A stretch of 27,950 nt of DNA from a virus. The DNA is taken from positions 1 through 27,950 of the IMG/VR virus record IMGVR_UViG_3300042310_000537; one strand, written 5' to 3'. Of this stretch, positions 221 to 15,981 are shown one piece after another. The notes below the pieces were generated by a model. That model made no database searches. It was not told the origin of the DNA and was given only the letters and a program-made list of their open reading frames with translations. A program made the translations under genes and the position numbers. The first letter of the stretch is position 1. Every line of letters starts with the position of its first letter.

Positions 221-2803
221 TTAAGATATTCCTAAACAACTTTCTAATAATTTAATTTTACATTGTTGTTCTTGCATAGCTTTTACCGTCAATGCCAATA
301 TTCCATTGTAATCTAAACCCAAATACTCATTCTCCGATTCATTTCCAGTTACAAAATTAGGTAACACTTCTTTTACTTCTTGAGCAATAAATCCACTTTT
401 AGAAATAGTAGGATGTTCAATCATATTATATGACTTCGGAACTAATTGTAATAGTTTTTCAGTAGCATTATAATTTATTATTTGAATATTTTCTTTTAAT
501 CTCACATCGGAAACATTAGAACCGGCAAAAGAATAATTACCATTATTTTGAACTCTGTGCAAATTAGTTTGACCTCGATATAAATTCATTTCATCGGTAA
601 TCCCCGCTACACCCGGTCTATGTCTACCTATAAACCAAGATATGTCATTAGCTGCGGTGTACATATTAATACCTATTATAACATTATCCTCGGCACCCAT
701 TTCAAGTCTTGCATCTCCTGATAAACTAGATTTAATAGTAAATTGCATATGATTAGGTGCAACAATTGTTACTTTTCCGTTTGAACATATTCGCATACGC
801 TCGGTAGGAGTTGCCGCTCCCGCTTGAGTAAACCATCTAAAATTACCTCCGGATGTAAATGTACCTCCTCCTGCAATTTTAAAATCAACATTGTCTGAAG
901 TTTCCCCTGAACCAAAATTATAGGTTGTACCCAAATAATTCATGTAAGCATAATAGCTCGTGTTTGTCCCTGCGTGAGTACTAATTTCTCCTGCAACTTG
1001 TAGTTTATTTGAAACGGTAGTAAAACCAATTCCCACTCTTTGATTAGTTCCATCAATAACCATAATATCACAAGTGGTAGTACCATTATTAGTGGCAAAA
1101 TATATATCCCCAAAGGCCGAAGAATGTTTGTTTTGACCTATTATATATAAAGCTCCACCATTTCCACTAATCCATCCACCTTGACATAAATTTGAAGTTC
1201 TTTTAAAATAGATTCCTTCACTTGTTGGTGTACATCCTGCTCCAACAACTGTCATTATGGGTGTTACCGCCAATCTAAATTCAGGATAACTAAATCCAAC
1301 TGTTCCTATTGTTGCACAGTTTGATATTAGTAAATTTGGAGCACATACTTGACAAGCAAAACAAGATATACCTGTGCTCGTAATACGCATTCTTTCAGTA
1401 CCTGAACCAACTGAGTTGGTGTTAAAAATTAAATTATCCCCAATTATACGAAGATTTTCACCTGCTCCTGTATCACTAGCACCTTTAATTGTTATTATTG
1501 AATCGTCATAAGTAACAATAAACCTTCTAGTATTTACAAGTGTGACATCTAACTTTCCTACTGGTGTACAAGTTCCTATACCAACATTACCATTACTAAT
1601 AATACGCATTGCTTCCGTAGGAGAGCCTGCGCTCGGTGATACACTAAATGATAATCCGGTATTTGGTCCTCCTCCACCAATAACATAACTACCGGCTAAA
1701 TCAATTAAACTATTTTTTGCTCTAATTAATAATTGTGTACCATTTGTACTTGCTTTATAAAAATTTGCAATAGTATCAAATGTAGAATCACCTGTTGATG
1801 CTTTCTTTACATCTAATTGATATCCTTGGTCTGCCCCTCCTATACTTAGTGTGGATGCGGCGGTTATTGTGTTTCCGAAACAAGATGTGCCTGTTGTAAT
1901 TAAATTATTTTTAACACAAGTTGTAGTTCCATTATCAAAAATACAACTATCTACTAAATGTTCTTTGCCGGTACCTTTTGGAATTATATTAGAAGTCAAA
2001 TATGTTTCATTACCTAAACTATCGTAAGTTTCAGGACCTAATACAAAGTGTGAAGATGTTACATTGGTTCCGTTTCCTCTATGAACGAATACAAACTCAT
2101 CATGTACCGAATCGTATAAGAATGATCCTGAGCCTCCAATTGAGCCACTATCTATTATCGTCAAACCTGCAAATCTAACTGATGGGTTTGCCGTATTTAA
2201 TTGTACTATATTTGTACCAATACTTACTGAACTTGCACTTATATATTGAATAGACGAACTACCTTGTACAATTAAGTCATTTGCAATATAAACACTTCCA
2301 CTAAAGACTTGTGTACCATAGAATTGATTAGAACCAGTAGTTGCGTATGAACCTGTTTTTGAAATAAGTGATGAAGTTACATCTGCTAATATTGTATTTT
2401 TAGTATCTAAACTTCCAGTATATGTTCCTAATGTTGTAAACTTTGTATCGTTACTTGATGTGTAATTATTTATATTACTTATAGAAATGTCAACACTACT
2501 ACTCTTTGTTTCTAAATTGGACAAACGTGCAATATTAGATGCAGTTACAGAGTTGATATTACTTATTGATATATCTACACTTGCTGATTTTGTTTCTATG
2601 TTAGTCAAACGAGTTAATGTAGATGATGTAACTCCACTTAATGTTTCAAATTTAGCATCTGACGAACCAGTTGATGCTTGTACAGTTATCAATTGTGTTG
2701 AAACGGACTGACTTAATCCAGTTATGTTTATTCCATTAACTGTACCTGTTATATCTCCTGATACTTGTAATGATCCTGTTACTGTTGGGTTGTACTGTAG
2801 CAT
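221..2803 (-). CDS. Tail fibre with coiled-coil shaft, shared linker, Cys-rich tip and C-terminal S74 chaperone
   Basis: 860 residues. Order: short N-terminus (MLQYNPTVTGSLQVSG), Ser/Thr-rich coiled coil with two 28-residue repeats (about residues 50-115), the linker shared with four other genes (151-301), then beta-repeats including GNVGIGTCTP. The C-terminus is a peptidase S74 intramolecular chaperone of endosialidase: SDVRLKENIQ begins at residue 765, with the Ser-Asp autocleavage pair at 765-766, followed by the conserved GFIAQEV segment. In that family the chaperone drives trimer folding and is then cut off. Cysteines are absent from residues 1-286, while about 14 lie in 287-860, including CFACQVCAPN. 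It sits alone between the 82-aa gene and the glycosyltransferase-like gene, with an ATATTTATA motif 23 bases upstream. A host-binding role is inferred. Confidence 0.9.
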   Translation of the reverse strand: MLQYNPTVTGSLQVSGDITGTVNGINITGLSQSVSTQLITVQASTGSSDAKFETLSGVTSSTLTRLTNIETKSASVDISISNINSVTASNIARLSNLETKSSSVDISISNINNYTSSNDTKFTTLGTYTGSLDTKNTILADVTSSLISKTGSYATTGSNQFYGTQVFSGSVYIANDLIVQGSSSIQYISASSVSIGTNIVQLNTANPSVRFAGLTIIDSGSIGGSGSFLYDSVHDEFVFVHRGNGTNVTSSHFVLGPETYDSLGNETYLTSNIIPKGTGKEHLVDSCIFDNGTTTCVKNNLITTGTSCFGNTITAASTLSIGGADQGYQLDVKKASTGDSTFDTIANFYKASTNGTQLLIRAKNSLIDLAGSYVIGGGGPNTGLSFSVSPSAGSPTEAMRIISNGNVGIGTCTPVGKLDVTLVNTRRFIVTYDDSIITIKGASDTGAGENLRIIGDNLIFNTNSVGSGTERMRITSTGISCFACQVCAPNLLISNCATIGTVGFSYPEFRLAVTPIMTVVGAGCTPTSEGIYFKRTSNLCQGGWISGNGGALYIIGQNKHSSAFGDIYFATNNGTTTCDIMVIDGTNQRVGIGFTTVSNKLQVAGEISTHAGTNTSYYAYMNYLGTTYNFGSGETSDNVDFKIAGGGTFTSGGNFRWFTQAGAATPTERMRICSNGKVTIVAPNHMQFTIKSSLSGDARLEMGAEDNVIIGINMYTAANDISWFIGRHRPGVAGITDEMNLYRGQTNLHRVQNNGNYSFAGSNVSDVRLKENIQIINYNATEKLLQLVPKSYNMIEHPTISKSGFIAQEVKEVLPNFVTGNESENEYLGLDYNGILALTVKAMQEQQCKIKLLESCLGIS
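1901..2353 (-). repeat. Shared fibre linker, copy in the 860-aa gene
   Basis: A 151-codon block from GSYATTGSNQFYGTQVF to GTTTCVKNNL (residues 151-301). It shares very high protein identity and long identical DNA runs with the copies in the 758-, 811-, 906- and (less so) 1126-aa genes. Confidence 0.9.
2467..2650 (-). repeat. 84-bp repeat encoding coiled-coil units (860-aa fibre)
   Basis: Two units with 84-base spacing (TTTGTTTCTA at both) encode NLETKSSSVDISISNIN and NIETKSASVDISISNIN. The second unit is diverged at its N-terminal side. Confidence 0.8.
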
Positions 2804-2825
2804 TTAGTTAGTCCGATTTGTTTTG

Positions 2826-2833
2826 TATAAATA
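2826..2833 (-). promoter_or_regulatory. ATATTTATA motif before the 860-aa fibre
   Basis: Coding strand reads GAATATTTATACAAAAC, 23 bases before the ATG and eight bases after the 82-aa stop. Confidence 0.5.
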
Positions 2834-2841
2834 TTCTTTAA

Positions 2842-3090
2842 TTAGTTTATACCATTAGTTAATGAAGCAAGATATTCTGCAATTACTTCCTCTGTCCAAA
2901 TTGCATTTGCAATTGCTTGAACTTTTGAATCTTCGTTTGAAACATCTTCTCCTGGATGTTTTACGTGTCTATGGAAGGATTTAGAAATTTCTACTCCATC
3001 TCTTTCAATGATAGTAGCCGTTCTTATTTGAATAGAACCATTTTCTACTACTTCTATTTGATCTACTTTTGTTGTTTCCGTTAATGCCAT
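2842..3090 (-). CDS. Small hypothetical phage protein downstream of the 758-aa fibre
   Basis: 82 residues starting MALTETTKVDQIEVVENGS. It looks soluble: a beta-rich N-terminal half (IQIRTATIIERDGVEIS) with a basic, His-containing stretch (SFHRHVKHPGED), then a helical C-terminal half (AIANAIWTEEVIAEYLASL). No signal peptide, membrane segment or cysteine is seen. It starts 12 bases after the stop of the 758-aa fibre gene and has no ATATTTATA motif of its own, so it is probably cotranscribed and possibly coupled with that fibre. Small genes also follow other fibres here (65, 88 and 115 aa), so an assembly or accessory role is possible but unproven. No family is recognised with certainty. Confidence 0.75.
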   Translation of the reverse strand: MALTETTKVDQIEVVENGSIQIRTATIIERDGVEISKSFHRHVKHPGEDVSNEDSKVQAIANAIWTEEVIAEYLASLTNGIN

Positions 3091-3102
3091 GTTTTTAATT
3101 TA

Positions 3103-5379
3103 TTATACGTTATAAAATATTTCTCCAATTATCCAACTATTATTCTGCAATTGAGAGGTATTCCAATTAGTATCTCCATTATCGGCTATTCTACCATACA
3201 AATTGGCATCATTTCCACCCTTATATAATCTTGCTCTTTGTGCATAATCTGCAGTTGCTAAATTTCCAGTACTTACACTTACATTTGGTTCTTGGTAAGA
3301 TCCCCAGGCTGCAGCTACAAATGGTAAACCTGATATCGTTACGGTACCCGATTGTCCGCTAATTGATGTAATTCTAAAACCCCATCTTACAAATACATAG
3401 TTTCCTACTCTAATATAAGAACCTGATCTGTAGTCATAAGATACTGTTGCTTGTTGTAATGAGGGTGTCCAAGAACCTTCTTCGTAATAGTTTAATTGTC
3501 CTGATCCATTTCCAAATTTAACTCCAAATGGAGTGCAAACTAAACCATCTGTATTAATTGTCAATCTATTTGAACCAACATTATTATCGTAAATTCTAAA
3601 TAGTTTTGTTGTATTTCCTGTTGAACCAAGTAGTCTCCATGAACCGGCACCTCCACCGGTATTACACATCCAAATATCCGATTCATCTCCTATTGCCATT
3701 ATTTGTTGAGAACTAGCTCTTCCTACCAACAATGGAGCACAAACTGTTTGAGAGAAACAAGACACATTATTATCTATTTTTAATCTTGCTGTATTACTTG
3801 TGCCTGTAAAAAAAGAAATATTATTACCACCACCAGCACCACAAGATATTAAAGATAATTGAGCACTTCCATTATAGTCGTTTGTTAAACCATAATATTC
3901 TGCAGTGGTTTTGAAAGTGTAAAACTTAGCAGCACATTGATATCCTTTACCATTATCAAAGAAATCAATACCACCATATCCACAATCAGATGTTCTGTAA
4001 TTTGTTAGAGGTACTATTGTACAACTCATACGAAGAGTTGTATGAGTAGCATCAGTTGATATTAAGTTAGGAGTACAAGTCGTATTAGAAAAACAAGATA
4101 TACCTGCTGAGGTTATAATAAAGTGGGGTGTTGAAGAACCGCCTGCTGCCATTTTAATAGCTCCACTAGAAAAATCATTCAATATTGCAATATCTCCTGC
4201 TACACTATTATATAAGTAAGTATTACTTGCTGTTGTAATTTTATAAGGTGTTGTAATTGAACCGAATTTACCTACAGCACCTGCACCTGCACCAGAATCA
4301 CTTGTATAGGATGTTTCAATATAAGCTCCTGTTCCGGCTGTTGTATTAGATATTATTAACCTTGTTAGTGAATTTTGGTTTACAGATATAGTTACATTAC
4401 CGTTAAATGTTCCTGAAGTTCCAGATATAGTACCTCCTGTAAAGGAAGGTGCACAAACTTGTCCGTCAAAACAAGCAGTACCCGTTATTACTAAATTGTT
4501 TTTAATACAAGTAGTTGTTCCATTGTCAAAAATACAACTGTCTACTAAGTGCTCTTTTCCAGTACCTTTTGATAATATATTTGTTGTAAGATAAGTTTCA
4601 TTACCCAAACTATCATATGTCTCTGGTCCTAATACAAAATGAGATGAGGTAACATTTGTACCATTACCTCTGTGAACGAATACAAATTCATCATGTACAC
4701 TATCATATAAGAATGAACCAGAACCTCCAATTGATCCACTATCTATTATAGTTAAACCTGCAAATCTAACTGATGGGTTTGCCGTATTTAATTGTACTAT
4801 ATTTGTTCCAATTGACACAGACGATGCAGAAATGTATTGTATTGAAGAACTACCTTGTACAATTAAGTCATTTGCAATATAAACACTACCACTAAAGACT
4901 TGTGTACCATAAAATGAGTTTGACCCAGTAGTTGCATAACTTCCAGTTGCTGCAATTAAAGAACTTGTTACATTTGTTAAGGTTGTCCATTTTGTATCAT
5001 TACTTCCTGTGTATTGGTTAATATTACTTATAGAAATGTCAACTGATGCTGACTTACTTTCTAAATTTGACAAGCGTGCAATATTGGAAGCAGTGACTGA
5101 ATTGATATTAGAAATACTTATGTCAACACTTGCAGACTTACTTTCTAAATTTGACAAGCGTGCAATATTGGAAGCAGTGACTGAATTGATATTAGAAATA
5201 CTTATGTCAACTGATGCTGACTTACTTTCTAAATTTGACAAGTCCGATGATACCGATGAAGAATATTGTATTGTATCATTAAATCCATAAATAGATCCAC
5301 TAAATGAACCTGTTAGTGATACATTTGAACCAGTTGATACTGTTGTTGTTCCTTTAAATTGTGCCGAATATATCTTCAT
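3103..5379 (-). CDS. Tail fibre with three-unit coiled-coil shaft, shared linker, Cys-rich tip and 'YYEEGSW' C-terminal module
   Basis: 758 residues. After a unique N-terminus (MKIYSAQFKGTTTVSTGSN), the shaft has 28-residue coiled-coil repeats, two of them almost identical in DNA. The shared linker is residues 146-296. The tip carries about 14 cysteines, including three C-x5-C motifs (CFDGQVCAP, CFSNTTCTP, CFSQTVCAP). The C-terminus (about 620-758) contains YYEEGSWTPSL, then GSYIRVGNYVFVRWGF and SGTVTISGLPF. This is a beta-sandwich module common at the ends of phage fibre proteins and a plausible receptor-binding head. There is no S74 domain, so the C-terminal architecture differs from the neighbouring 860-aa paralogue. 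An ATATTTATA motif lies 18 bases before the start, only two bases after the preceding gene's stop. Confidence 0.9.
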   Translation of the reverse strand: MKIYSAQFKGTTTVSTGSNVSLTGSFSGSIYGFNDTIQYSSSVSSDLSNLESKSASVDISISNINSVTASNIARLSNLESKSASVDISISNINSVTASNIARLSNLESKSASVDISISNINQYTGSNDTKWTTLTNVTSSLIAATGSYATTGSNSFYGTQVFSGSVYIANDLIVQGSSSIQYISASSVSIGTNIVQLNTANPSVRFAGLTIIDSGSIGGSGSFLYDSVHDEFVFVHRGNGTNVTSSHFVLGPETYDSLGNETYLTTNILSKGTGKEHLVDSCIFDNGTTTCIKNNLVITGTACFDGQVCAPSFTGGTISGTSGTFNGNVTISVNQNSLTRLIISNTTAGTGAYIETSYTSDSGAGAGAVGKFGSITTPYKITTASNTYLYNSVAGDIAILNDFSSGAIKMAAGGSSTPHFIITSAGISCFSNTTCTPNLISTDATHTTLRMSCTIVPLTNYRTSDCGYGGIDFFDNGKGYQCAAKFYTFKTTAEYYGLTNDYNGSAQLSLISCGAGGGNNISFFTGTSNTARLKIDNNVSCFSQTVCAPLLVGRASSQQIMAIGDESDIWMCNTGGGAGSWRLLGSTGNTTKLFRIYDNNVGSNRLTINTDGLVCTPFGVKFGNGSGQLNYYEEGSWTPSLQQATVSYDYRSGSYIRVGNYVFVRWGFRITSISGQSGTVTISGLPFVAAAWGSYQEPNVSVSTGNLATADYAQRARLYKGGNDANLYGRIADNGDTNWNTSQLQNNSWIIGEIFYNV
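4492..4944 (-). repeat. Shared fibre linker, copy in the 758-aa gene
   Basis: A 151-codon block (residues 146-296), GSYATTGSNSFYGTQVF to GTTTCIKNNL. It has a 53-base identical run with the 860-aa copy (4754-4806 against 2163-2215). Confidence 0.9.
5023..5243 (-). repeat. 84-bp tandem repeat encoding coiled-coil units (758-aa fibre)
   Basis: The block starting GACTTACTTTC recurs at 5051, 5135 and 5219, an exact 84-base period. The first two full units differ only in their last eight or nine bases. Each encodes 28 residues, or four heptads, of the type ARLSNLESKSASVDISISN. Hydrophobic residues fall at alternating 3- and 4-residue spacing, as in a trimeric coiled coil. Confidence 0.85.
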
Positions 5380-5396
5380 TTTTCTTTATTCTTTTG

Positions 5397-5404
5397 TATA
5401 AATA
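5397..5404 (-). promoter_or_regulatory. ATATTTATA motif before the 758-aa fibre
   Basis: Coding strand reads AATATTTATACAAAAG, 18 bases before the ATG. It is nearly identical over 14 bases to the copy at 2826-2833. Confidence 0.5.
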
Positions 5405-5406
5405 TT

Positions 5407-6873
5407 TTATTTTGTTTTAAGTTCGTCCAATTCTTTTCTTAATTTTTGAACTTCGGACAATAATACAATTGATAACTTTTCATAGTCAACATTTCTTACT
5501 ATCTTATTATCATCTTCATCTTTCAATATTGCTAATTCTGGATAAACTTCTGCAACATCTTCTGCTATTAAACCTATTTGTGTTCCTGACTTCAATTCTT
5601 TTCCTAAATGTTTCCAATGTTCTTTGTAATCGTATGATACAGGTTTTAATTTCATAAACATACAACTATCCGTATTGTATTCACAGATGCTTGTTTTGTA
5701 TTCTTTTGAGGAACCTGCTGCGTAGAATGCTCCGTTAACATTTAGTTTATATGCTCCTGGACATGCTGTATTAATTCCTACGCTTGCATTTTCCGTTATA
5801 AACATTGCATCTGTTTGACACGTATTATTAGTACAACTAAAAGCTATGCTAAAACTTTGTAATACACCAACATCTCCTGCAACTAATTTAATTCTCTTTC
5901 TATTGCTTGCTGTACTTGTATCGTCCATAAAAATATAAGGACTATCAGCAGTCATATGGAGTGTAGTTTCAGGATTGCATGTATTGATTCCTACGTTACC
6001 AGGTCTTGTGATTGTAAGCCTAGATTTTGTAGATGTAAAACAATCCATTACGTGTATATTACAATCGCTAAATTCGCCCATAAACCATCTATCATTACCA
6101 TTAAAGTCTTGAAATCTCATGCCTGAAGCTCCTGAAGATTTTCTTAGAGCAACTAAAGCATCATCAGCACTCTGTAATTCTAAAATGCCTCTTCCGCCCA
6201 CATGAGATCCATAAACATGTAATTTAACAGCAGGTGCAGTAGTACCAATACCCAAATTTCCTGTACTAGTAAGTCTCATTTTCTCAACAATACCATTTGT
6301 AGTATCACTAGTGTAAAATTGCATAGCACTTTGAGGAGTAGTTGATGTTCCACTCTCTAAAAGTACTGCAATTATCCCGGCTCTTTTTCCGCTGGAAAAA
6401 TTAGGGCCTGCCCAAGTAATAGTACCAACAGAACCTGCATTTGTGGTAGCTCCGCTTGTTAATATAACGTGCGCTTGTGCATTTGCGGTAATATTAGTAT
6501 TTGCAATTTCTAAAATTTTATTAGTTCCCCCATGACCGTAACCTTGAGGTGTACAAGTATTAATACCTACATCTCCAGTAGCATATGAAACTGAAAGCCC
6601 ATAGTTACCGGTATTTGCGTTCTGAATATGATAGTTAAATTGAGTGTCACTCATGCCTGCAAACCATCTCTCGTTTCCTTGATATTTCAATCTAAGTCTG
6701 GCATCCGCATTAGCAGAATCCAAATTCAATATTGATGAATCCGATGAAATTGCATTAATTATACCAAGACCTGATGTGTGAACTCCTACAATATGAAGAG
6801 CTGTACTAGGGCTTTCTGTTCCAATACCAATTCTATTAGAGACCGTCCAACATCCATTTACACAATATGCCAT
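5407..6873 (-). CDS. Shaft-less fibre tip protein: GIGT beta-repeats plus S74-like chaperone
   Basis: 488 residues. It begins at once with tip-type sequence (MAYCVNGCWTVSNRIGIGT) and lacks the coiled-coil shaft and linker of its neighbours. About five GI[GN]T-type repeats follow (GIGTESP, GINTCTP, GIGTTAP, GINTCNP, GINTACP), each leading into a strand such as KLHV or KLNVNG. About 11 cysteines are present. The C-terminus (from residue 387) is S74-like: GSSKEYKTSI, LKPVSYDY, IGLIAEDVAEVYPELA, then a helical end. The Ser at the cleavage position is followed by Lys rather than the usual Asp, so autocleavage may be altered. It starts only six bases after the stop of the 1126-aa fibre, with no promoter-like motif. 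It is probably translated from the same message and may complete or cap that fibre. Confidence 0.88.
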   Translation of the reverse strand: MAYCVNGCWTVSNRIGIGTESPSTALHIVGVHTSGLGIINAISSDSSILNLDSANADARLRLKYQGNERWFAGMSDTQFNYHIQNANTGNYGLSVSYATGDVGINTCTPQGYGHGGTNKILEIANTNITANAQAHVILTSGATTNAGSVGTITWAGPNFSSGKRAGIIAVLLESGTSTTPQSAMQFYTSDTTNGIVEKMRLTSTGNLGIGTTAPAVKLHVYGSHVGGRGILELQSADDALVALRKSSGASGMRFQDFNGNDRWFMGEFSDCNIHVMDCFTSTKSRLTITRPGNVGINTCNPETTLHMTADSPYIFMDDTSTASNRKRIKLVAGDVGVLQSFSIAFSCTNNTCQTDAMFITENASVGINTACPGAYKLNVNGAFYAAGSSKEYKTSICEYNTDSCMFMKLKPVSYDYKEHWKHLGKELKSGTQIGLIAEDVAEVYPELAILKDEDDNKIVRNVDYEKLSIVLLSEVQKLRKELDELKTK

Positions 6874-6879
6874 ATTCTA

Positions 6880-9800
6880 TTACTTTATTTCTGTTAAATT
6901 AAATTTATATTTTTTACAACTTATCTGATTAATAATAAATAAGTCACTTTCTCCTTCTTGTATTAACCAACTACCTCTTGTACCATCTACATAGTTTGCA
7001 CATTCGTAATTCAAGTTATTCAAAATTAAGTCATTTGTTCCAATTGTTCCCGCAGTTAATGCTCCAGTAAATCTACCACACCCATTAACATCCAACTTAT
7101 AAGATGGAGTTGCACAATTTATACCAACATTTCCATTTGCACCAATTACCATTTTTATTTGACATGATTGGTTTGGTTTTGCCGGTGTGCCACCTGAACC
7201 AGCTACACCAAATGCTAAATATTCTTTACTATCGTTGTTATTATAAAAATGGAATAATGAACTTCCAGCTACTAGTGAGTCATTGTCATAGTAACGGGTT
7301 AATAATATATCTCCCAAAGGAACATTAAATGCATTTTCTCCAGATAGATGCAAAGTTGATTTTGGTGTTTGTGTTCCTATTGCCATACAACTAAAGTTAG
7401 ACATTACACCACAAACTTGTCCACTTGCTTTCAATGTTGCATTTACACAAACTGTAGTTCCGTCATCTATAATACAAGAATCATATAAATGATCACCACC
7501 ACCACTTTTAGCAATGTAGTTACAAGTCAAAGTAGTTTCCGAACCCAATGTAGATGCTCTCGGACCTGATAATAACATACCACCCGAATATCCTATTGTT
7601 GACGGATTTGAATATATCCATCTATTACAAAGTGAGTCCCATAACATTGAACCAGTAATACCTGCAGAACTTCCACTATCTTGTACACTCATTCCTGCAA
7701 ATCTCACACTTGGTGTTGCGGTATTAAGTTGGACAATGTTAGTACCTATACTTACACTACTAGCACTTATATATTGTATGCTTGAAGAACCTTGTACAAT
7801 TAAATCAGTTGCAATGAATACACTTCCAGAAAATACTTGTGTACCATAAAAGGTATTACTTCCAGTTGTTGCAAAACTTCCTGTTGTATTTTCTAAATTT
7901 GACAAACGTGCAATGTTAGATGCAGTTACAGAGTTAATGTTACTTAAAGAAATGTCAACACTTGCAGACTTTGTTTCTAAATTGGACAATCGTGCAATGT
8001 TAGATGCAGTTACAGAGTTAATGTTACTTAAAGAAATGTCAACCGATGCAGACTTTGTTTCCAAATTTAATATTCTTGGAGAGAAAGATGCAGTTGCACT
8101 ATTCAAAGATGTTAATATTTCAACTACTTGTGACGAACCAGAAACTGTACCCGTTGGTAAGGAGTTAATCAAACTAATACTACCACTATTAAGTGTGTCC
8201 GTTGTAACTATTGTTTGTGCAGATATTGTTCTTGTCGTTTGTGCTTTATCATCTACTAAAAAGATTGAACCTGTGCCTACATAAATGTGTCTCCAAGGTT
8301 TATTTTGACTTCCCAAATCGTATGTTCCACTTATTGCCGGAACTAAAGATTGTGAGATTGGATTTAAGTGAGATGCAGTTAATGCATTTGTTACTGTTAC
8401 ATTTGCAACCGGTGTCCAACTTGCCGTATAAGGTGATGTGTTGGAAACTTGTAAAACATATCCTGATTCTGCAGAACTAATAGCAGGTAAGTCACCACCT
8501 ATTGTTCCAACTGCCCAACCTGATGTTGTTTCTGGAAATGTAATTAGAGATGAAGTGTTATCCGTTAATACAATTGATTCAGGGATTATTTTTTCATAAC
8601 TTAAATCAAATGTTTGTATATTAACAAATCTATCTCCAAAGTTATGTTCAAATCTCCAACTTAATGAAGATGTAAAATTTTGTTTAACTGTTCTGCCTTG
8701 TACTTCAATTATACCACCAATTCCTGCAGTTGCATATCCTGCAACATTTGTACCGAATTCTAAAACTAATGTATTTGAGTCGGTTGCTGTAATACTTTGA
8801 GGTAATACAACTTGTCCTGCAGTTGAATATACTGTTACATTTGGATATTGTGCATTTAAGTTATGTGTGAATGTCCAAGTTGACGATGGTGTTGTTTGTG
8901 TATGTATTTTTCCTCCTGCAGTCAAACCGGTCAATAAAGAACCATCCCCTTTGAATGAACCCGTAAATGACCCACTAAATGACCCTGTATTAAATGATGA
9001 TGTAAATTGGTTTAATGAACTTACTATATCATAAACTTGTGACGAACCACTTACTAATGTGGGTTTTCCAGTTAATTCAGAAAATGTAATTCCAGTTCCA
9101 ATTAATCTATATCTTAAATCTAATGATGCAGTTGTTTGTTCGGAACCACTTATAATTCCACCTGGTTTAGATGCAATGTTGTCCCATGTAGTTTGAGTTA
9201 TTGAACCACTTACGACATATCTTGTATCATATGAACTTGTTAATTGTGACGAACCTGATACTAATGTAGGTTTATTTACAATTGTATTAAAGTTTGTAGA
9301 ACCTGTAATTGTACCTGACACATCTAAATCACCCGTTAAACTAATCTTACCAGTAGTTTGAGTCATTATAGAATCTCCAATATGATCGTCACCTACTGCG
9401 TAAACTATTTTTCCAGTAGTTAATCCTATCTCATCTCCTAATGAACCTGTATTTTGTGGGCCTGAAATTAACTTTGCAGATGTGTATGTTAATCCCGTTG
9501 GGTTTTGATACAACCAATTGTTATTTAAACTATCCCAAAATAGAGAACCACTTGCCCCTGCTCCTGAACCGGAATCTTGTACCGATATACCACCAAATCT
9601 GATACCAGGATTAGAAGTATTAAGAGTGATTGTGTTTGTTCCTATACTTACCGAACTACCTGTAATATTTTGCATTGATGAAGTTCCCAATACAATTAAG
9701 TCACCTTGTATGTAAGTTGAACCACTAATCGTTTGAGTACCATTAAATGTATTACTTCCTGTTGTTGCGTAAGACCCTGTGAAAGATGCTAACCCACTTA

Positions 9801-10260
9801 TTCTCGTAGTTTGTGTAATTTGTTCTTGTCCAACTGATGCACTAAAGTTTCCAGTCACTGTTGAAACCGATGCTGATAGAGAAGTTAAAGATGCATTACT
9901 TTGTGAGAATGAAGTTGCAACTGACGAACTAAAATCACCCGTTACTGATGCAACACTTGCAGATAAAGAAGTTATACTTGCATTACTTGAACTAAATGAT
10001 GTTGCAACTGACTGACTAAATGATTGTGTGAATGTATTTAGATTAGTTATAGAAGTATCTACACTACTACTCTTTGTTTCCAAATTTGACAAACGAGATG
10101 CTTGAGAACCCGTATCGGTAGTTAATGCATTTATTTTTGCATTCAACGATGCGGACACTACTAATAACGAAGATGATACTTCCGTATATCTTGGTATTTC
10201 TGCAAATTGTCCGGCTTGTTGTAGTAAGGAACCGGTTATAATAGGACTATCTAAAATCAT
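6880..10260 (-). CDS. Long tail fibre with two linker copies, two W-HNL domains and a Cys-rich tip
   Basis: 1126 residues. It opens MILDSPIITGSLLQQAG, resembling the start of the 906-aa fibre (DAPIITGS). Order: coiled coil (about 30-155), diverged linker copy A (162-299), a TTWDNIASKPGG repeat, two beta domains of the TWTFTHNLNAQYP type (about 450-590), a YDLGSQNKPWRHIYVG segment typical of phage fibres, two 28-residue coiled-coil repeats, linker copy B (794-943), then a tip with GINCATPSYKLDVNG. It ends in GSWLIQEGESDLFII and KKYKFNLTEIK, a short C-terminal module I associate with phage fibres. There is no S74 domain. Cysteine is absent up to residue 877, then about 11 occur in 249 residues. 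It has the best Shine-Dalgarno here (CGGAGAA before ATG) and an ATATTTATA motif 19 bases upstream. Two stops (TAA TAG) end it. Confidence 0.9.
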   Translation of the reverse strand: MILDSPIITGSLLQQAGQFAEIPRYTEVSSSLLVVSASLNAKINALTTDTGSQASRLSNLETKSSSVDTSITNLNTFTQSFSQSVATSFSSSNASITSLSASVASVTGDFSSSVATSFSQSNASLTSLSASVSTVTGNFSASVGQEQITQTTRISGLASFTGSYATTGSNTFNGTQTISGSTYIQGDLIVLGTSSMQNITGSSVSIGTNTITLNTSNPGIRFGGISVQDSGSGAGASGSLFWDSLNNNWLYQNPTGLTYTSAKLISGPQNTGSLGDEIGLTTGKIVYAVGDDHIGDSIMTQTTGKISLTGDLDVSGTITGSTNFNTIVNKPTLVSGSSQLTSSYDTRYVVSGSITQTTWDNIASKPGGIISGSEQTTASLDLRYRLIGTGITFSELTGKPTLVSGSSQVYDIVSSLNQFTSSFNTGSFSGSFTGSFKGDGSLLTGLTAGGKIHTQTTPSSTWTFTHNLNAQYPNVTVYSTAGQVVLPQSITATDSNTLVLEFGTNVAGYATAGIGGIIEVQGRTVKQNFTSSLSWRFEHNFGDRFVNIQTFDLSYEKIIPESIVLTDNTSSLITFPETTSGWAVGTIGGDLPAISSAESGYVLQVSNTSPYTASWTPVANVTVTNALTASHLNPISQSLVPAISGTYDLGSQNKPWRHIYVGTGSIFLVDDKAQTTRTISAQTIVTTDTLNSGSISLINSLPTGTVSGSSQVVEILTSLNSATASFSPRILNLETKSASVDISLSNINSVTASNIARLSNLETKSASVDISLSNINSVTASNIARLSNLENTTGSFATTGSNTFYGTQVFSGSVFIATDLIVQGSSSIQYISASSVSIGTNIVQLNTATPSVRFAGMSVQDSGSSAGITGSMLWDSLCNRWIYSNPSTIGYSGGMLLSGPRASTLGSETTLTCNYIAKSGGGDHLYDSCIIDDGTTVCVNATLKASGQVCGVMSNFSCMAIGTQTPKSTLHLSGENAFNVPLGDILLTRYYDNDSLVAGSSLFHFYNNNDSKEYLAFGVAGSGGTPAKPNQSCQIKMVIGANGNVGINCATPSYKLDVNGCGRFTGALTAGTIGTNDLILNNLNYECANYVDGTRGSWLIQEGESDLFIINQISCKKYKFNLTEIK
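7432..7881 (-). repeat. Shared fibre linker, copy B in the 1126-aa gene
   Basis: A 150-codon block (residues 794-943), more diverged after NPSVRFAG-like sequence (AGMSVQDSGSSAGITGS). It joins the Cys-free and Cys-rich parts of the protein. Confidence 0.85.
7890..8063 (-). repeat. 84-bp tandem repeat encoding coiled-coil units (1126-aa fibre)
   Basis: CGTGCAATGTTAGATG occurs at 7907 and 7991, an 84-base period. The two units are almost identical in DNA and encode the same 28-residue coiled-coil motif as the other fibres. Confidence 0.85.
9364..9777 (-). repeat. Diverged fibre linker, copy A in the 1126-aa gene
   Basis: About 138 codons (residues 162-299), GSYATTGSNTFNGTQTI to DDHIGDSIM. It is homologous to copy B in the same protein, so the module is duplicated within one gene. 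Confidence 0.8.
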
Positions 10261-10278
10261 TTCTCCGTTTTATTTAAG

Positions 10279-10286
10279 TATAAATA
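10279..10286 (-). promoter_or_regulatory. ATATTTATA motif before the 1126-aa fibre
   Basis: Coding strand reads GAATATTTATACTTAA, 19 bases before the ATG and followed by a GGAG ribosome-binding site. It lies 13 bases after the 65-aa stop. Confidence 0.5.
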
Positions 10287-10299
10287 TTCTTTTATTCTT

Positions 10300-10497
10300 T
10301 TATTCCAATGTAGGTCTGTCTGTAATTTCTGTTTTAACTATTTCACCATTTACCAATGTATATGTGTAATTGGCAAAATCTAAATTTTCATCGGTTTCAA
10401 TATACAATGAATTACTGGTTTCTATAAATGGTTTTATAGAGTCTAAATTATCACATGTTAGGTTGAATGTTCCGTTTTGATTAAATACTATTATCAT
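10300..10497 (-). CDS. Small hypothetical protein downstream of the 811-aa fibre
   Basis: 65 residues, starting MIIVFNQNGTFNLTCDNLD. Predicted soluble, acidic and beta-rich, with one cysteine; it contains NLDFANYTYTLVNGEIV and ends EITDRPTLE. No family is recognised. It starts 10 bases after the stop of the 811-aa fibre gene and has no ATATTTATA motif of its own, so it is probably cotranscribed with that fibre. The next motif (10279-10286) follows its stop and belongs to the 1126-aa gene. Its position matches the pattern of a small gene after a large fibre gene. A fibre-assembly role is only a guess from position. Confidence 0.65.
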   Translation of the reverse strand: MIIVFNQNGTFNLTCDNLDSIKPFIETSNSLYIETDENLDFANYTYTLVNGEIVKTEITDRPTLE

Positions 10498-10507
10498 AAT
10501 TTTTATA

Positions 10508-12943
10508 TTAAGGTTGTTTTCCTGTTACTTGTATCCAATAAGCGCCACCACCACCGTAAGTTCCTCCTATTTTACAAACTCTTAAATTAGTGCTACTTGT
10601 TTTATATGCCATCCAACTTCCACCATTTCCTGTTCCGCAACTAAACATTGTTAAAGCTTGTGTATTTGAATCTCTTGAAGTTAAAAATACATAATAGTGT
10701 GCTCCATAATTCCAGTTATAGAAGTGATCAAAAAACGCTTTAATTTCAAACATTTGTCCTTGACCTGCATCATCCCATGTTGGAAAATCAAAATAGGTCG
10801 CCGTATTACCGGCCATTGTTCCTCCTATTGATTTTGTAATAACACCGTTTGAAGTTATTATACCATACGATGAATTTACACAGCCTATTTGTGCATTTGG
10901 AGCACAAACTGTGAATCCAAAACAAGCTACACCATTTCCTGCTATTCTAAAAAGACTAGTTGTACTACTTTGATTTTGCACAATCATTGCATGGTCTGCA
11001 GAAGTAGAACCTGCTGTTACTAATAATCCTAAACTTTGCCCTGAAGTGGATGAACCAATAAAGTTAGCTGTCCAATTATTTGCTGGCCCTTGTACTACAA
11101 ATTTTTCACCAGGAGTTGTAATTCCTATACCAACATTGCCCGCACATGTAATAGTAAGTCTTGAATTTCCATCTGTATCTCTTAAATAAAAGTTACAACC
11201 TGCTCTATATTGTAAATATAAGTTATTATCACCGGCTAATGTTAATATGTTTCTAGCGGTAGCAGTTGAATCAGTAAAATTTAACCAATTATTGTTAGTA
11301 ATAGTTACATTCCCATTAAATGTTGCTGCTCCTGTACCCAGCATTCTAAATCTATTAACCCCGCCACTTTCTAAATCAAGTATTCTATCTGTTACGTCTG
11401 TGGAACATATTCTAACTAATAATCCTGCATTGTAATTGTTTGCAGTTGCACTTGTATTCCAAATAGTGCCTGCATAACCTTGTCCATTTACTGCCCAATC
11501 TAAACCATAAAGATTAAGACTCAAACCATCCACATTAGTTGGGCGAACTGATGTATTAGCTAGTAATGTAGCGGGAGATGTTGTACATATACCCACATTA
11601 CCATTATTAAGTACAAAACCACCAACATAAGATCCACTACTATTATAATTCTGGAAATCTAAATAATTTGAATTAAGATAGGCACCATTTATTTGAAAGG
11701 CCGAATAACAACAATTATATATTGCTCCGGTTGCAGTATTTCTATTAAACCCAATTCTTCCTCCATCAGAATTTTGAATTTTTAAATTTCCAATTTTTAA
11801 GCTTCCTGATACTTCTAATACTTCTGCAGGTGATGTAGTACCTATACCAACACAACCACTAAATAATCCAACAGGAGAACAAATAACCGTACTACCATAT
11901 ATTGTAGTTCCACTTATAGTCCCAGTTCCTACTAAATTGTTCTTAATACAAGTAGTTGTTCCATTATCAAATATACAAGAATCTACTAAGTGTTCTTTAC
12001 CTGTTCCTTTTGATAAAGTATTACAAGTTAAGTAAGTTTCATTACCTAAACTATCATATGTTTCGGGACCTAATACGAAATGAGAGGATGTTATATTACT
12101 CCCATTACCTCTATGTACAAATATAAACTCATCTTGTAGTGAATCGTATAAAAATGATCCTGATCCGCCTACCGAACCACTATCTATTATGGTTAAACCT
12201 GCGAATCTCACGCTTGGGTTTGCAGTGTTTAATTGTACTATATTTGTACCAATACTTACACTACTTGCACTTATATATTGTATGCTTGACGAACCTTGTA
12301 CAACTAAATCATTTGCTATATAAACCGAGCCACTAAAGACTTGTGTACCATAAAATGAATTAGAACCAGTTGTTGCATATGAACCCGTTTTTGAATTCAG
12401 AGATGTTATATCATTAGATGCAGTAAATGTATTTATACTACTTACTGATATATCTACACTTGCCGATTTTGTTTCTAAATTTGATAAACGTGCAATGTTA
12501 GATGCAGTTACAGAGTTAATGTTTGTAATAGAAATGTCAACACTACTACTCTTTATTTCTAAATTACTTAAGCGTGCAAGATTAGATGCAGTTACCGAAT
12601 TGATATTAGAAATACTAATGTCAACACTACTACTCTTTATTTCTAAATTATTCAATCTTCCAATATTAGAACCAGAAGTTGTTTGTAAAGTATTTAGTTG
12701 AGATGAAATTGACTGACTTATAGTATTAAATGACGATGTAAATACAAATGCAGTAGAGTCAAAACCATCTAACAATAATGCATTTGATGCAGTACCTGCC
12801 AATTGAACTTGTCCTAATGTTATTGTACTTGCATTTGAAAAGTCAACTGCTGATCCAGAGAATGTTATTGCTCCCTGTGCAGATGATGAAATCTGTGCTA
12901 CTACATTTCCGTTTATGTCCTTAAATCTATATTGTCCTGCCAT
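10508..12943 (-). CDS. Tail fibre with three-unit coiled-coil shaft, shared linker, Cys-rich tip and unrecognised head
   Basis: 811 residues. The N-terminus (MAGQYRFKDINGNVVAQISS) is unlike the other fibres. Three 28-residue coiled-coil repeats (about 94-165) lead to the shared linker (187-337). The tip contains VGIGTTSPAEVLEV, VGICTTSPATLL and VGIGITTPGEKFVV beta-repeats, and CFGFTVCAPN. About 16 cysteines lie after residue 300 and none before. The last 110 residues (FDFPTWDDAGQGQMFEIKAF, DHFYNWNYGAHYYVF, GGGGAYWIQVTGKQP) form an aromatic- and glycine-rich head I cannot assign to a named family. There is no S74 domain. An ATATTTATA motif lies 13 bases upstream, the closest such spacing in the window. 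The 65-aa gene follows. Confidence 0.9.
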   Translation of the reverse strand: MAGQYRFKDINGNVVAQISSSAQGAITFSGSAVDFSNASTITLGQVQLAGTASNALLLDGFDSTAFVFTSSFNTISQSISSQLNTLQTTSGSNIGRLNNLEIKSSSVDISISNINSVTASNLARLSNLEIKSSSVDISITNINSVTASNIARLSNLETKSASVDISVSSINTFTASNDITSLNSKTGSYATTGSNSFYGTQVFSGSVYIANDLVVQGSSSIQYISASSVSIGTNIVQLNTANPSVRFAGLTIIDSGSVGGSGSFLYDSLQDEFIFVHRGNGSNITSSHFVLGPETYDSLGNETYLTCNTLSKGTGKEHLVDSCIFDNGTTTCIKNNLVGTGTISGTTIYGSTVICSPVGLFSGCVGIGTTSPAEVLEVSGSLKIGNLKIQNSDGGRIGFNRNTATGAIYNCCYSAFQINGAYLNSNYLDFQNYNSSGSYVGGFVLNNGNVGICTTSPATLLANTSVRPTNVDGLSLNLYGLDWAVNGQGYAGTIWNTSATANNYNAGLLVRICSTDVTDRILDLESGGVNRFRMLGTGAATFNGNVTITNNNWLNFTDSTATARNILTLAGDNNLYLQYRAGCNFYLRDTDGNSRLTITCAGNVGIGITTPGEKFVVQGPANNWTANFIGSSTSGQSLGLLVTAGSTSADHAMIVQNQSSTTSLFRIAGNGVACFGFTVCAPNAQIGCVNSSYGIITSNGVITKSIGGTMAGNTATYFDFPTWDDAGQGQMFEIKAFFDHFYNWNYGAHYYVFLTSRDSNTQALTMFSCGTGNGGSWMAYKTSSTNLRVCKIGGTYGGGGAYWIQVTGKQP
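11933..12385 (-). repeat. Shared fibre linker, copy in the 811-aa gene
   Basis: A 151-codon block (residues 187-337), GSYATTGSNSFYGTQVF to GTTTCIKNNL, with the same boundaries as the copies in the 860- and 758-aa genes. Confidence 0.9.
12449..12665 (-). repeat. 84-bp repeat encoding coiled-coil units (811-aa fibre)
   Basis: Three units encode ETKSASVDIS / EIKSSSVDIS segments separated by NINSVTASN-type spacers. The units are more diverged in DNA than in the 758- and 1126-aa genes. Confidence 0.8.
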
Positions 12944-12955
12944 TTGTTATTTTTT

Positions 12956-12963
12956 TATAAATA
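12956..12963 (-). promoter_or_regulatory. ATATTTATA motif before the 811-aa fibre
   Basis: Coding strand reads AATATTTATAAAAA, 13 bases before the ATG, which would allow only a very short leader. It lies 12 bases after the stop of the 88-aa gene. Confidence 0.45.
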
Positions 12964-12975
12964 TTTTTTATTATC

Positions 12976-13242
12976 CTACAAAGAAGGTGTATAATTGTCT
13001 GTTTTATACTTTGCAGTTTGTACCCAACCTCTTTCATATGCATCAATAACTATTTCGTCTTTAGAACCAGGAATTGATATACTTAATTCTAAATATTTTT
13101 CTACTGCAAGTTTTACAATATCGTCTATTGCTATTCTTGCTCTTTCTTTCATTGCATTTTCAACCCAATCTTGTGGTTCGTAGGCAATGTATTCCATTGC
13201 GGCCTTTTCGGCATTTGTTAATTCAATTGTGTATGTATTCAT
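12976..13242 (-). CDS. Small helical hypothetical protein downstream of the 906-aa fibre
   Basis: 88 residues, starting MNTYTIELTNAEKAAMEYIA. Mostly helical and charged: EPQDWVENAMKERARIAIDD and IVKLAVEKYLELSIS, then a C-terminal segment ending KYKTDNYTPSL. No cysteine, signal peptide or membrane segment. Short proteins of this style occur in phage structural regions, but I cannot name a family. It starts 18 bases after the stop of the 906-aa fibre gene with no ATATTTATA motif between, so it is likely the last gene of the unit that begins with the 1451-aa fibre. The motif after its stop (12956-12963) serves the 811-aa gene. Confidence 0.75.
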   Translation of the reverse strand: MNTYTIELTNAEKAAMEYIAYEPQDWVENAMKERARIAIDDIVKLAVEKYLELSISIPGSKDEIVIDAYERGWVQTAKYKTDNYTPSL

Positions 13243-13260
13243 AATTTTTAATTTTTATTT

Positions 13261-15981
13261 TTATCCTAATAAGTATCCCATAAAGTTTAAGTACGAATCT
13301 GTTGTACCATTAACTCCGTATGGGAGTGTAGATGCATCACTAACAAAATAAATTCTAACCGTATCATTTGCTGCTAAATTTATAATTACATCTCTATTTC
13401 CATTTGTTGCATATGCGTCTCCCGTTTCATTTGTATCCTGTCTTAGATGATAATCTCCTAAGAAATTGGTATCATTTATTCTTAAGAACCATCTATAAAC
13501 ACTACCAGCAGTGGCACCAATAGCAGACCATGAAAAATAATATACTCCAGCTACTGGTGCTGTAAATACTCCAGTAGAAGCATTGTAATGACTACCTTTG
13601 TTAAGGTGTACACTTGGATATATTACATATGAATTAAGAGTAGTGTTTCCCATACCATAAGCCAAAAATGATGGTTGATACGGTTTTGTAACGATACCCG
13701 CGGGTGTGAATCTCATCACATTATCTGAAATAGAATAACTATAAAAATCCAAACAACTACCTACGGCCTTAACCGCAGTACCAATAGACCAAACCGATGT
13801 TCCCGCATTTTTCCAGTTAACGTCTGATTGTGCTGATGTGGCCGCTCTATCTAATTTAACTCCTGGGAAAGACCCACGTACATAAACTGCTTCATTTACA
13901 CAAATTGCTCCTGCAAAACAAGCTACACCTGTGCACATTAATTTTAATATGTTTGTATTAGAACCTTTTTGAATTGCAAACTCTCCATTAGTACCAAATT
14001 GATTACCTATTGTACCATTAGCCGTTCCTAAATAAATTATATCATTAGATACGGTTGATAATACTCCAATAGCTTGTCCACCATCACCACTAAAAGCAAT
14101 TGCTGCATATCCCGATGTACCACCCGCTCTAAAATAAGATGCGTTGGTATTTGTCGGTGCGGTTACTTCTAATTTGTATGAGTTTTGTGTACTTCCTAAT
14201 AACAAATATTGGTTAGTAGTTACTCTAAATGCTTCTACATTATTTGTACCAATATAAATAGGTGCGTTATTTGCAGTTCCTATCAACATCCCTTTACCAC
14301 ATGCACCATCCGTACCAACAAATGCCATACATTGTGTATTTATTCCAAATAATCCCGCGTCAACACCTGAACCATACATTTTAGTATAAACTCCAGTCAT
14401 TGAACTTCCTATACAAATCTGACCATATAATCCAGGTTGAAATGAAGAACAATTAGTCCATGCATAAAAACTATTACTACCATTGTATATAATTACATTA
14501 TTATTTACACATATATTACATGCAAAATTAACTAAACCACTTGCATTTATTCTAACTTTTTCAGTTGGTAAACATTTTGCAGCACTATTAGTTGAAAATA
14601 CTATATCAGTACCATTACAACCTGCTGACCAGTTTTCTGCAGCTGATCCAAATATTTTTGCACCCATTTTATACGAAGAACCATCATGTCCACCAATTGC
14701 AAGTCCACCTAAATTATTTGCCGATTGAATTGCTGTTGGTGATGTTAATGAAGTTCCTCTAGATCTTCTAGCATAAAATAATGATGTACAATCTCCGTTA
14801 TCAGAACTTTCAGTTAATATAACCATACTATCTTGTGATGCTTTTGCTATATCTAATACATTTGATGGAGCTCCAACACCAATACCAACATTACCACAAT
14901 AAGTCCAAGACATTATACAAAGATTACCCTGTGTAGTATGATTTCTTCTTAATATTAATGCATCGTCTACACCAGTTTTTACGTTATATACAAATTTAGT
15001 GACAGTACTACCATCACAAAAATATAATAAATCATCTCCGGCCGATGTTGCGTTTATATGTAATTTAGCACATGGTGAACTACTACCGATACCAACATTT
15101 CCACCTATTTCCCAAATACCACTATCTATTAGATGTTCTTTGCCTGTTCCTTTTGGAATTTTATTACATGTTAAGTATAATTCATTTCCTAAACTATCAT
15201 ATGTTTCGGGACCTAATACGAAATGGGATGATGTTATATTTGTTCCATTACCTCTATGAACAAATACAAACTCATCATGTACCGAATCGTATAAGAATGA
15301 TCCTGAGCCCCCAATTGAGCCACTATCTATTATAGTTAAACCTGCAAATCTCACACTCGGATTTGCAGTATTTAATTGTACTATATTTGTTCCAATACTT
15401 ACACTACTTGCAGAAATATATTGTATACTTGATGAACCTTGTACAATTAAGTCGTTTGCTATATAAACACTACCACTATATGTTTGAGTTCCAAAAAATG
15501 TGTTACTTCCAGTTGTTGCGTATGACCCTGTTTTTGAGTTTAACGATTCATTACCATTACTTGCTGTAAAATTATTTATATTACTTATAGAAATGTCAAC
15601 ACTACTACTTTTACTTTCCAAATTTGATATTCTTGGAGTAAATGATGCAGTTGCAGTATTTAATGATGAAATAATATCAATAACTTGAGATGAACCACTA
15701 ACTAAAGTAGGTTTATTTACAATTGTATCAAAGTTTGTTGAACCTGTAATTCCTGCAGATGCAGATATTGGTGCTATTACTTCAATCGTAGTACCGGCTA
15801 TTCCGTCAATTCGTCTTAAATATGCTCTATCGTTTGCAGTAAGTTGATCACCAGCAAATGATGTTGCACTTTGTCCACCAAGAAATGTATTTGAACCTGT
15901 TGTTGCAACCGATGCTAAACTCCCCAATGTACTACCATTTAGTGAGAAACTTCCTGTAATTATTGGTGCGTCTATTCTCAT
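13261..15981 (-). CDS. Tail fibre with shared linker, Cys-rich tip and C-terminal C1q/TNF-like head
   Basis: 906 residues. It begins MRIDAPIITGSFSLNG, similar to the 1126-aa fibre. The shaft is short, with only one partial coiled-coil unit, then the shared linker (152-287), which loses similarity at DSGIWEIGGNVGIG. The tip has repeats such as NVGIGSSSP and NVGIGVGAP, plus about 17 cysteines (for example CFAGAICVN). The C-terminal 137 residues (770-906) look like a C1q/TNF jelly-roll: STGVFTAPVAGVYYFSWSA, an inner NDTVRIYF strand and a terminal YLNFMGYLLG, matching the usual 'G.Y.F' and 'F.G.L' landmarks. This would be a trimeric receptor-binding head. There is no S74 domain. The start codon overlaps the previous stop by one base (TAATG), implying coupled translation with the 1106-aa fibre. 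Confidence 0.9.
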   Translation of the reverse strand: MRIDAPIITGSFSLNGSTLGSLASVATTGSNTFLGGQSATSFAGDQLTANDRAYLRRIDGIAGTTIEVIAPISASAGITGSTNFDTIVNKPTLVSGSSQVIDIISSLNTATASFTPRISNLESKSSSVDISISNINNFTASNGNESLNSKTGSYATTGSNTFFGTQTYSGSVYIANDLIVQGSSSIQYISASSVSIGTNIVQLNTANPSVRFAGLTIIDSGSIGGSGSFLYDSVHDEFVFVHRGNGTNITSSHFVLGPETYDSLGNELYLTCNKIPKGTGKEHLIDSGIWEIGGNVGIGSSSPCAKLHINATSAGDDLLYFCDGSTVTKFVYNVKTGVDDALILRRNHTTQGNLCIMSWTYCGNVGIGVGAPSNVLDIAKASQDSMVILTESSDNGDCTSLFYARRSRGTSLTSPTAIQSANNLGGLAIGGHDGSSYKMGAKIFGSAAENWSAGCNGTDIVFSTNSAAKCLPTEKVRINASGLVNFACNICVNNNVIIYNGSNSFYAWTNCSSFQPGLYGQICIGSSMTGVYTKMYGSGVDAGLFGINTQCMAFVGTDGACGKGMLIGTANNAPIYIGTNNVEAFRVTTNQYLLLGSTQNSYKLEVTAPTNTNASYFRAGGTSGYAAIAFSGDGGQAIGVLSTVSNDIIYLGTANGTIGNQFGTNGEFAIQKGSNTNILKLMCTGVACFAGAICVNEAVYVRGSFPGVKLDRAATSAQSDVNWKNAGTSVWSIGTAVKAVGSCLDFYSYSISDNVMRFTPAGIVTKPYQPSFLAYGMGNTTLNSYVIYPSVHLNKGSHYNASTGVFTAPVAGVYYFSWSAIGATAGSVYRWFLRINDTNFLGDYHLRQDTNETGDAYATNGNRDVIINLAANDTVRIYFVSDASTLPYGVNGTTDSYLNFMGYLLG
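15121..15528 (-). repeat. Shared fibre linker, copy in the 906-aa gene
   Basis: About 136 codons (residues 152-287), GSYATTGSNTFFGTQTY to KEHLIDS. Similarity ends sharply there, where a different tip (GIWEIGGNVGIG) begins. A 68-base block (15266-15333) matches the 860-aa copy with one mismatch. Confidence 0.88.

Follow-up and report, generated by a model that had tools for sequence, protein, structure and literature searches.

A pool of exchangeable, cysteine-rich fiber tips in a group of uncultured T4-like phages

The stretch of DNA analyzed here (the window) is a whole IMG/VR record of 27,950 bases and represents a phage fragment. All of its main ORFs lie on the minus strand, and nine of them encode large fiber or structural proteins (Table 1). 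Five of these, the 860-, 758-, 1126-, 811- and 906-aa fibers, share a Cys-free shaft of coiled-coil and β structure, which is followed by a conserved linker (SSIQYISASSVSIGTN...GKEHLVDSCIFDNGTTTC, or a GGDHL variant) and then by unrelated modular tips. Pfam searches placed a Peptidase_S74 domain in the 860- and 488-aa proteins, above the cut-off, and also in the 1106-aa protein, and did not find this domain in the 758-, 811-, 906- and 1126-aa ORFs. The 860-aa fiber contains SDVRLKEN, with putative S74 autocleavage at the conserved Ser. The 488-aa ORF matched the sequences of solved MAT tips with E values of 1e-7 (8ond) and 4e-6 (8oml), and a capping-loop motif, G-[IVM]-G-x-x-x-P, was present at 108 sites across the tip set. 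As judged from sequence, the window's tips are trimeric β-helix modules of the S74/MAT-like type, kin to the MAT fibers of Bdellovibrio.

Table 1. Coordinates of the fiber genes and cysteine-bearing elements in the window
Feature	Position	Strand	Remarks
860-aa fiber, ORF	221-2803	-	14 Cys, first at aa 287
Cys-rich tip of 860-aa fiber	224-1960	-	predicted β-helix modules and S74 chaperone (Peptidase_S74 E=4e-13); 14 Cys
QQCKIKLLESC in C-terminal helix of S74 chaperone, 860-aa fiber	236-268	-	Cys at exposed helix positions
CFACQVC, 860-aa fiber	1343-1363	-	C0, C3, C6
GIGTCTP capping-loop motif, 860-aa fiber	1562-1582	-	Cys at the T/S position of homologs
SCIFDNGTTTC linker-end hairpin, 860-aa fiber	1916-1948	-	
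758-aa fiber, ORF	3103-5379	-	14 Cys, first at aa 282
Cys-rich tip of 758-aa fiber	3106-4551	-	14 Cys; C-terminal ~140 aa without Cys
CFSQTVC, 758-aa fiber	3739-3759	-	
CFSNTTC, 758-aa fiber	4075-4095	-	
CFDGQVC, 758-aa fiber	4453-4473	-	
SCIFDNGTTTC linker-end hairpin, 758-aa fiber	4507-4539	-	
488-aa shaft-less fiber protein	5407-6873	-	11 Cys, GINTC caps, S74 chaperone
1126-aa fiber, ORF	6880-10260	-	11 Cys, first at aa 878
Cys-rich tip of 1126-aa fiber	6883-7491	-	
SCIIDDGTTVC linker-end hairpin, 1126-aa fiber	7447-7479	-	upstream: LCNRW (7618-7632), LTCN (7519-7530)
811-aa fiber, ORF	10508-12943	-	16 Cys, first at aa 307
Cys-rich tip of 811-aa fiber	10511-11992	-	15 Cys
CFGFTVC, 811-aa fiber	10904-10924	-	
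SCIFDNGTTTC linker-end hairpin, 811-aa fiber	11948-11980	-	
906-aa fiber, ORF	13261-15981	-	18 Cys, first at aa 272
Cys-rich tip of 906-aa fiber	13264-15135	-	17 Cys
C1q-like C-terminal knob of 906-aa fiber	13267-13641	-	Pfam C1q E=2.6e-11; without Cys
CFAGAIC, 906-aa fiber	13900-13920	-	
NFACNIC, 906-aa fiber	14509-14529	-	
1106-aa fiber with S74 chaperone	15981-19301	-	0 Cys; same-genome internal control
684-aa structural fiber	24141-26195	-	0 Cys; internal control

Phage fibers are folded in the reducing cytoplasm and are normally low in cysteine. In the five shafted fibers, shaft plus linker contain 4 Cys in 2,079 aa versus 69 in 2,382 aa for the tips (Fisher P=7.6e-15). An initial annotation of this DNA had described Cys-free shafts and Cys-rich tips; these counts bear it out, except that the four "shaft" cysteines all fall among the final ~50 linker residues, where the enrichment begins (LCNRW and LTCN in the 1126-aa ORF, and LTCN in each of the 811- and 906-aa ORFs). 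That annotation correctly gave the 1106- and 684-aa fibers as Cys-free, but its list was incomplete, overlooking 6 Cys that lie in the 1451-aa ORF and also the 488-aa ORF, which brings the number of Cys-rich window tips to six. Most window cysteines lie within the β-helix body and some in the S74 chaperones; the C1q knob of the 906-aa fiber and the C-terminal domain of the 758-aa fiber are Cys-free ends. Group-wide, the Cys-rich tips contain 466 Cys in 17,565 aa, versus 8 in 9,120 aa for the tips that follow this linker in Cys-poor relatives, and an expanded tip set contained 868 Cys in 31,734 aa, or about 2.7%.

Relatives were collected by protein and DNA-pattern scans of IMG/VR, which added ~20 contigs whose tips are Cys-rich and at least that many in which the same linker precedes Cys-poor tips. 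One relative with Cys-rich tips, G001 (the contig behind locus L012), is a 209-kb T4-like phage. Its T4-type head, portal, sheath and baseplate were recognized by PHROGs (phrog_138, phrog_213, phrog_23 and phrog_219); these virion genes lie in the relative, outside the window fragment. Nine fiber genes of G001 encode 9-32 Cys each, and its sheath has 2 Cys in 746 aa, its capsid 0 in 541 aa and its other structural proteins almost none. A linker-bearing 784-aa fiber of the same genome has 0 Cys, S74 included, and the shafts are also Cys-free. Thus, the Cys trait is a property of the fiber class and not of the whole virion or the host. The orthologous fiber N-termini MLQYNP, MKIYS, MAYC, MILDSP, MAGQYRF and MRID are shared by phages whose tips differ, indicating that tips are swapped and that the Cys trait moves with the modules. 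On the sheath tree, the Cys-rich and Cys-poor states must have switched at least three times, with labels based solely on the fibers visible per contig. Cys-poor sister phages (L014, L016-L022, L081 and others) share the linker (L016-L022 and L014, up to 84% identity) or the GIGT-type tips (L014 and L081) with the window group but, unlike it, have 0-2 Cys per fiber. No linker relatives were detected in 84,980 GTDB genomes, a near-identical phage was not found in INPHARED, and scans for relatives of single modules returned one locus or none apiece. These comparisons show that the six tips are part of an exchangeable pool of trimeric β-helix modules common to a group of uncultured T4-like myophages, and that this pool has gained cysteine repeatedly, at the protein level.

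Other arrangements were seen among these relatives. The 1125-aa ORF at position 3 of L100 is a nearly Cys-free β-helix fiber with most of its 7 Cys in the C-terminal ~250 aa, including S74, and looks like a Cys-class end module fused to a Cys-free fiber. Serial cassettes of the GGT-x-SGT and CFACQVCAP types occur in L123 (7761-10007, 22 Cys) and L126 (2555-7258, 41 Cys), possibly as the result of tandem growth of tip modules. G001 also encodes outer-membrane β-barrels (one TonB-plug receptor and one CarboxypepD_reg/OMP protein), an LCCL/C-type lectin protein and a cohesin-like protein (L057 2689-5967; L056 10123-12372, 14470-17127 and 17134-18780), genes that are unusual in a phage and point to a Bacteroidota host. 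Its fiber array is interrupted by a small block of non-structural genes (111081-113951), one of them glycosyltransferase-like by eye, and with exposed tip cysteines at hand it could be asked whether these are subject to S-linked modification.

In-frame TGT is raised 16-fold (25.6 versus 1.6 per 1000 codons), whereas the remaining two frames show no difference. Because TGT is raised in frame only, selection acts on the protein. Two alternatives would have TGT either not specify Cys here or serve as a DNA signal, such as a recombination or regulatory motif. In their favor are positions that accept many residues and an excess of T before Cys codons: in all Cys-rich tip genes, the preceding codon ends in T in 367 of 639 cases versus 286.5 predicted by synonymous usage, perhaps through avoidance of out-of-frame ATG. 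However, both active-site cysteines of the phage thioredoxin (WCGPC) are encoded by TGT, Cys codons end in T or C in the same ratio as other two-fold codons do, and the frame test shows no rise out of frame. Codon reassignment and a DNA-level motif were rejected on these grounds and are extremely improbable.

When 143 tip cysteines were aligned with proteins from outside the group, none faced a Cys; the opposing residues were T (20), A (18), S (17), V (12), G (11), N (10), D (9) and others. The initial proposal that Cys stands in place of Thr, Ser or Ala therefore holds insofar as other residues are replaced and never Cys, but the replacement is not specific to these three. In a C-terminal domain that is 89% identical between the window protein and its relative, two Lys of the former correspond to Cys in the latter.

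The five C-F-x4-C-[AT]-P motifs previously named were all located in the window, as was a linker-end C-x8-C, at four sites. A wider pattern, hydrophobic-x3-G-x-x-X0-F-x-X3-x-[VITL]-X6, matched 80 sites in Cys-rich ORFs and 15 equivalents in Cys-poor fibers. Cys occupies position +0 in 55 of the 80 sites and +6 in 57, versus 0 of 15 in the Cys-poor fibers. At least two of the three variable positions are Cys in 55 of the 80 sites (C0+C6 in 44, 16 of which include C3; C3+C6 in 9; C0+C3 in 2), whereas 16 sites have one Cys and 9 have no Cys. The presence of C0 is associated with that of C6 (odds 3.7, P=0.016), and sites lacking C0 tend to have C3 (9 of 13, P=0.056). A far stronger C0-C6 coupling (P=5e-8 and 3e-10) was discarded because the pattern used had included unrelated sites; P=0.016 comes from the cleaner count. 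An AlphaFold2 model of the 44-aa motif alignment, of low-to-moderate confidence (mean pLDDT 61), contains strands SCF and VCA, on which C0 and C6 oppose each other, places C3 at the loop, and suggests that the X-F-x4-X hairpin would set two cysteines directly across from each other. The linker-end SC-x8-C spans an NG or DG turn, with both cysteines opposite by hairpin geometry; in a weak, low-confidence AlphaFold2 model of the 758-aa fiber, strands CIFD and TTTC are placed over the NG turn. For a 489-aa tip, AlphaFold2 gave a pLDDT of 35, too low for interpretation.

Outside these hairpins, cysteines are scattered. In the capping loops, G-[C]-V-G-I-G-x-[C]-[C]-P, Cys is found in 19, 14 and 8 of 108 sites at the bracketed positions, respectively, and in 17 of 108 at seven residues past the Pro; pairing among the positions was not detected across the 108 sites. 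The S74 chaperones contain 26 Cys in 912 aa on Cys-rich fibers versus 2 in 4,006 aa on Cys-poor ones. These cysteines occupy variable, mostly polar or charged columns (entropy 2.50 versus 1.57, P=4e-7) and so are probably exposed and away from the trimer axis. Outside the hairpin motif, Cys spacings of 1-4 are avoided (z about -3.5); an apparent period of three in the spacing was gone once the motif was masked.

Among Cys-rich tips, Cys is kept at 0.62, 0.56 and 0.71 of positions at 35-50%, 50-70% and 70-90% identity, respectively, which is close to the retention of Thr, Ser and Asn. Fixed structural disulfides are expected to be retained more strictly. Tip Cys counts are even in 15 cases and odd in 14. 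It seems that the density of Cys is more conserved in these tips than its position. The scattered and poorly conserved cysteines, the avoided spacings and the exposed S74 sites argue against one fixed disulfide ladder and against classical metal sites. The structural purpose initially proposed is consistent with the C0/C6 hot spots, opposed in the AlphaFold2 model, but not with the poor conservation of the other cysteines or with counts that are not even, and the initial interpretation as a whole is partly supported.

The same data bear on the possibility that counter-selection was lifted, such that the tips, unlike most virion proteins, ceased to avoid Cys and its frequency drifted to what base composition dictates, with Cys a neutral surface residue. 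The observed 2.74% Cys against 3.28% expected from base composition, a conservation equal to that of Thr, Ser and Asn, and the preference of S74 cysteines for variable columns agree with this. However, hot spots that are ~70% Cys and the avoidance of spacings 1-4 are not neutral, and G001 retains its Cys-free linker-bearing fiber and shafts, so that the environment of the whole virion is not the cause. Pure drift accounts for the overall Cys level but leaves the hot spots, the avoided spacings and the Cys-free fiber in the same genome unexplained, and we consider it somewhat unlikely as the explanation.

Iron in phage tail fibers has precedent (PMC11705849), and the tips could likewise bind metal, akin to the iron-holding HxH of T4 gp37, through cysteines that act as ligands close to the trimer axis. 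A trimer would gather three or six cysteines, and C-x-x-C is indeed raised (51 versus 24) via the hairpin motif. However, C-x-C is avoided (9 versus 25 expected), H-x-H is not raised (3 versus 3.6 expected), C/H near-pairs are at or below chance, no four-ligand Cys/His arrays were found in the tips, and the Cys positions are not conserved. The iron sites of T4 gp37 and marine phages resemble the present tips in being trimeric with repeated potential ligands but consist of His-x-His on the axis, whereas neither HxH nor CxC is enriched here. Metal sites in the tips, as initially suggested, are thus quite improbable. Elsewhere in the window, aa 89-217 of the 1451-aa ORF (23374-23760, minus strand) are cupredoxin-like, with GHPFWIK and YYICQFHGMM, whose H, C, H and M follow the order of blue-copper proteins (Pfam Copper-bind E=0.1, below cut-off); a similar C-H-M site was absent from the other loci scanned, including the 1224-aa ortholog in L012.

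The reading we favor, at a probability of about 0.4, is that exposed thiols, some of them paired as hairpin staples, oxidize after lysis. Tip thiols would stay reduced inside the infected cell and oxidize on virion release, whereupon C0/C6 or C3/C6 of X-F-x4-X and the linker-end SC-x8-C would close as cross-strand staples and the scattered exposed thiols could link chains or neighboring fibers. The outcome would be a distal tip that is covalently locked and responsive to redox conditions, atop a Cys-free shaft, with possible effects on stability or adsorption. This reading is favored by the enrichment from the linker on, recurring on many unrelated modules; by the homologous sites in Cys-poor phages, which are never Cys, and the in-frame restriction of TGT; by the two Cys-rich positions that oppose each other in the AlphaFold2 model; and by the precedents of phages Milano and 7-7-1 and of MAT tip disulfides. 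Avoidance of spacings 1-4 is expected if mispairing or chelation is harmful. A thioredoxin is present in both Cys-rich and Cys-poor genomes and does not discriminate between them; this shared phage enzyme and reduced thiols in the cell are at least compatible. Against oxidation stand the Cys counts, which are not consistently even numbers, the turnover of cysteines outside the hot spots at the pace of Thr, Ser and Asn, the moderate C0/C6 association and the absence of the DsbA family from all records, in a search whose controls worked. A search for the thiol oxidase Evr1_Alr gave no match, its controls being likewise empty. S74 chaperone domains are normally cut off the mature fiber, and their Cys richness, which fiber staples leave unexplained, holds our confidence at this level.

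The closest known parallel comes from Milano (structural proteins with 2.1% Cys) and 7-7-1, large Agrobacterium myophages with disulfide-linked virions, whose virion proteins likewise have raised Cys and whose disulfide networks have been mapped (PMC10811340, PMC12796354). Their disulfides, including those joining tail fiber and tailspike to the baseplate, were mapped by cryo-EM. In those phages, Cys is raised in sheath, tube, baseplate and capsid, some of it clade-conserved; here, in contrast, the tips alone are rich, with fast positional turnover, and almost no Cys occurs in sheath, capsid or shafts. The phages with Cys-rich tips are not Milano-type virions, given the Cys-poor sheath and capsid of G001. 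Similar to the present fibers, Bdellovibrio MAT fibers (8ond Bd2133, 8oml, 8ol4) have β-helix modules, capping loops, S74 or other knobs and tips exchanged on conserved shafts, with disulfides in several tips (PMC10769870), but they are bacterial, and no large-scale enrichment in Cys has been described among them. A literature search of limited extent found no description of a Cys-rich fiber-tip pool.

Alternatively, the thiols could act in adhesion, through thiol-disulfide exchange with the host or its surroundings or through attachment to surfaces of metal or sulfur. The cysteines do sit at exposed positions in the distal, host-facing and swappable part, and the trait is common to nearly all GIGT-type tips of one phage. 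However, the S74 chaperones, normally released, are equally affected, and the hairpin hot spots suggest that cysteines face each other and not outward, which makes adhesion an unlikely account. A more speculative proposal, which we hold to be a long shot, is that exposed tip thiols zip the approximately ten parallel fibers of a virion to one another or to host surface proteins. Such a redox-gated adhesive bundle could swap its specificity modules freely because selection would act on thiol density only and not on position.

Receptor-binding tips with ~3% Cys that span lineages, beside Cys-free fibers in the same genome, constitute a natural experiment on the thiol chemistry of virions outside the cell. 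Single Cys pairs in these tips need not be fixed disulfides. If the thiols act by oxidation, redox conditions would govern adsorption, and a class of environmental phages would be recognizable in sequence by its Cys density.
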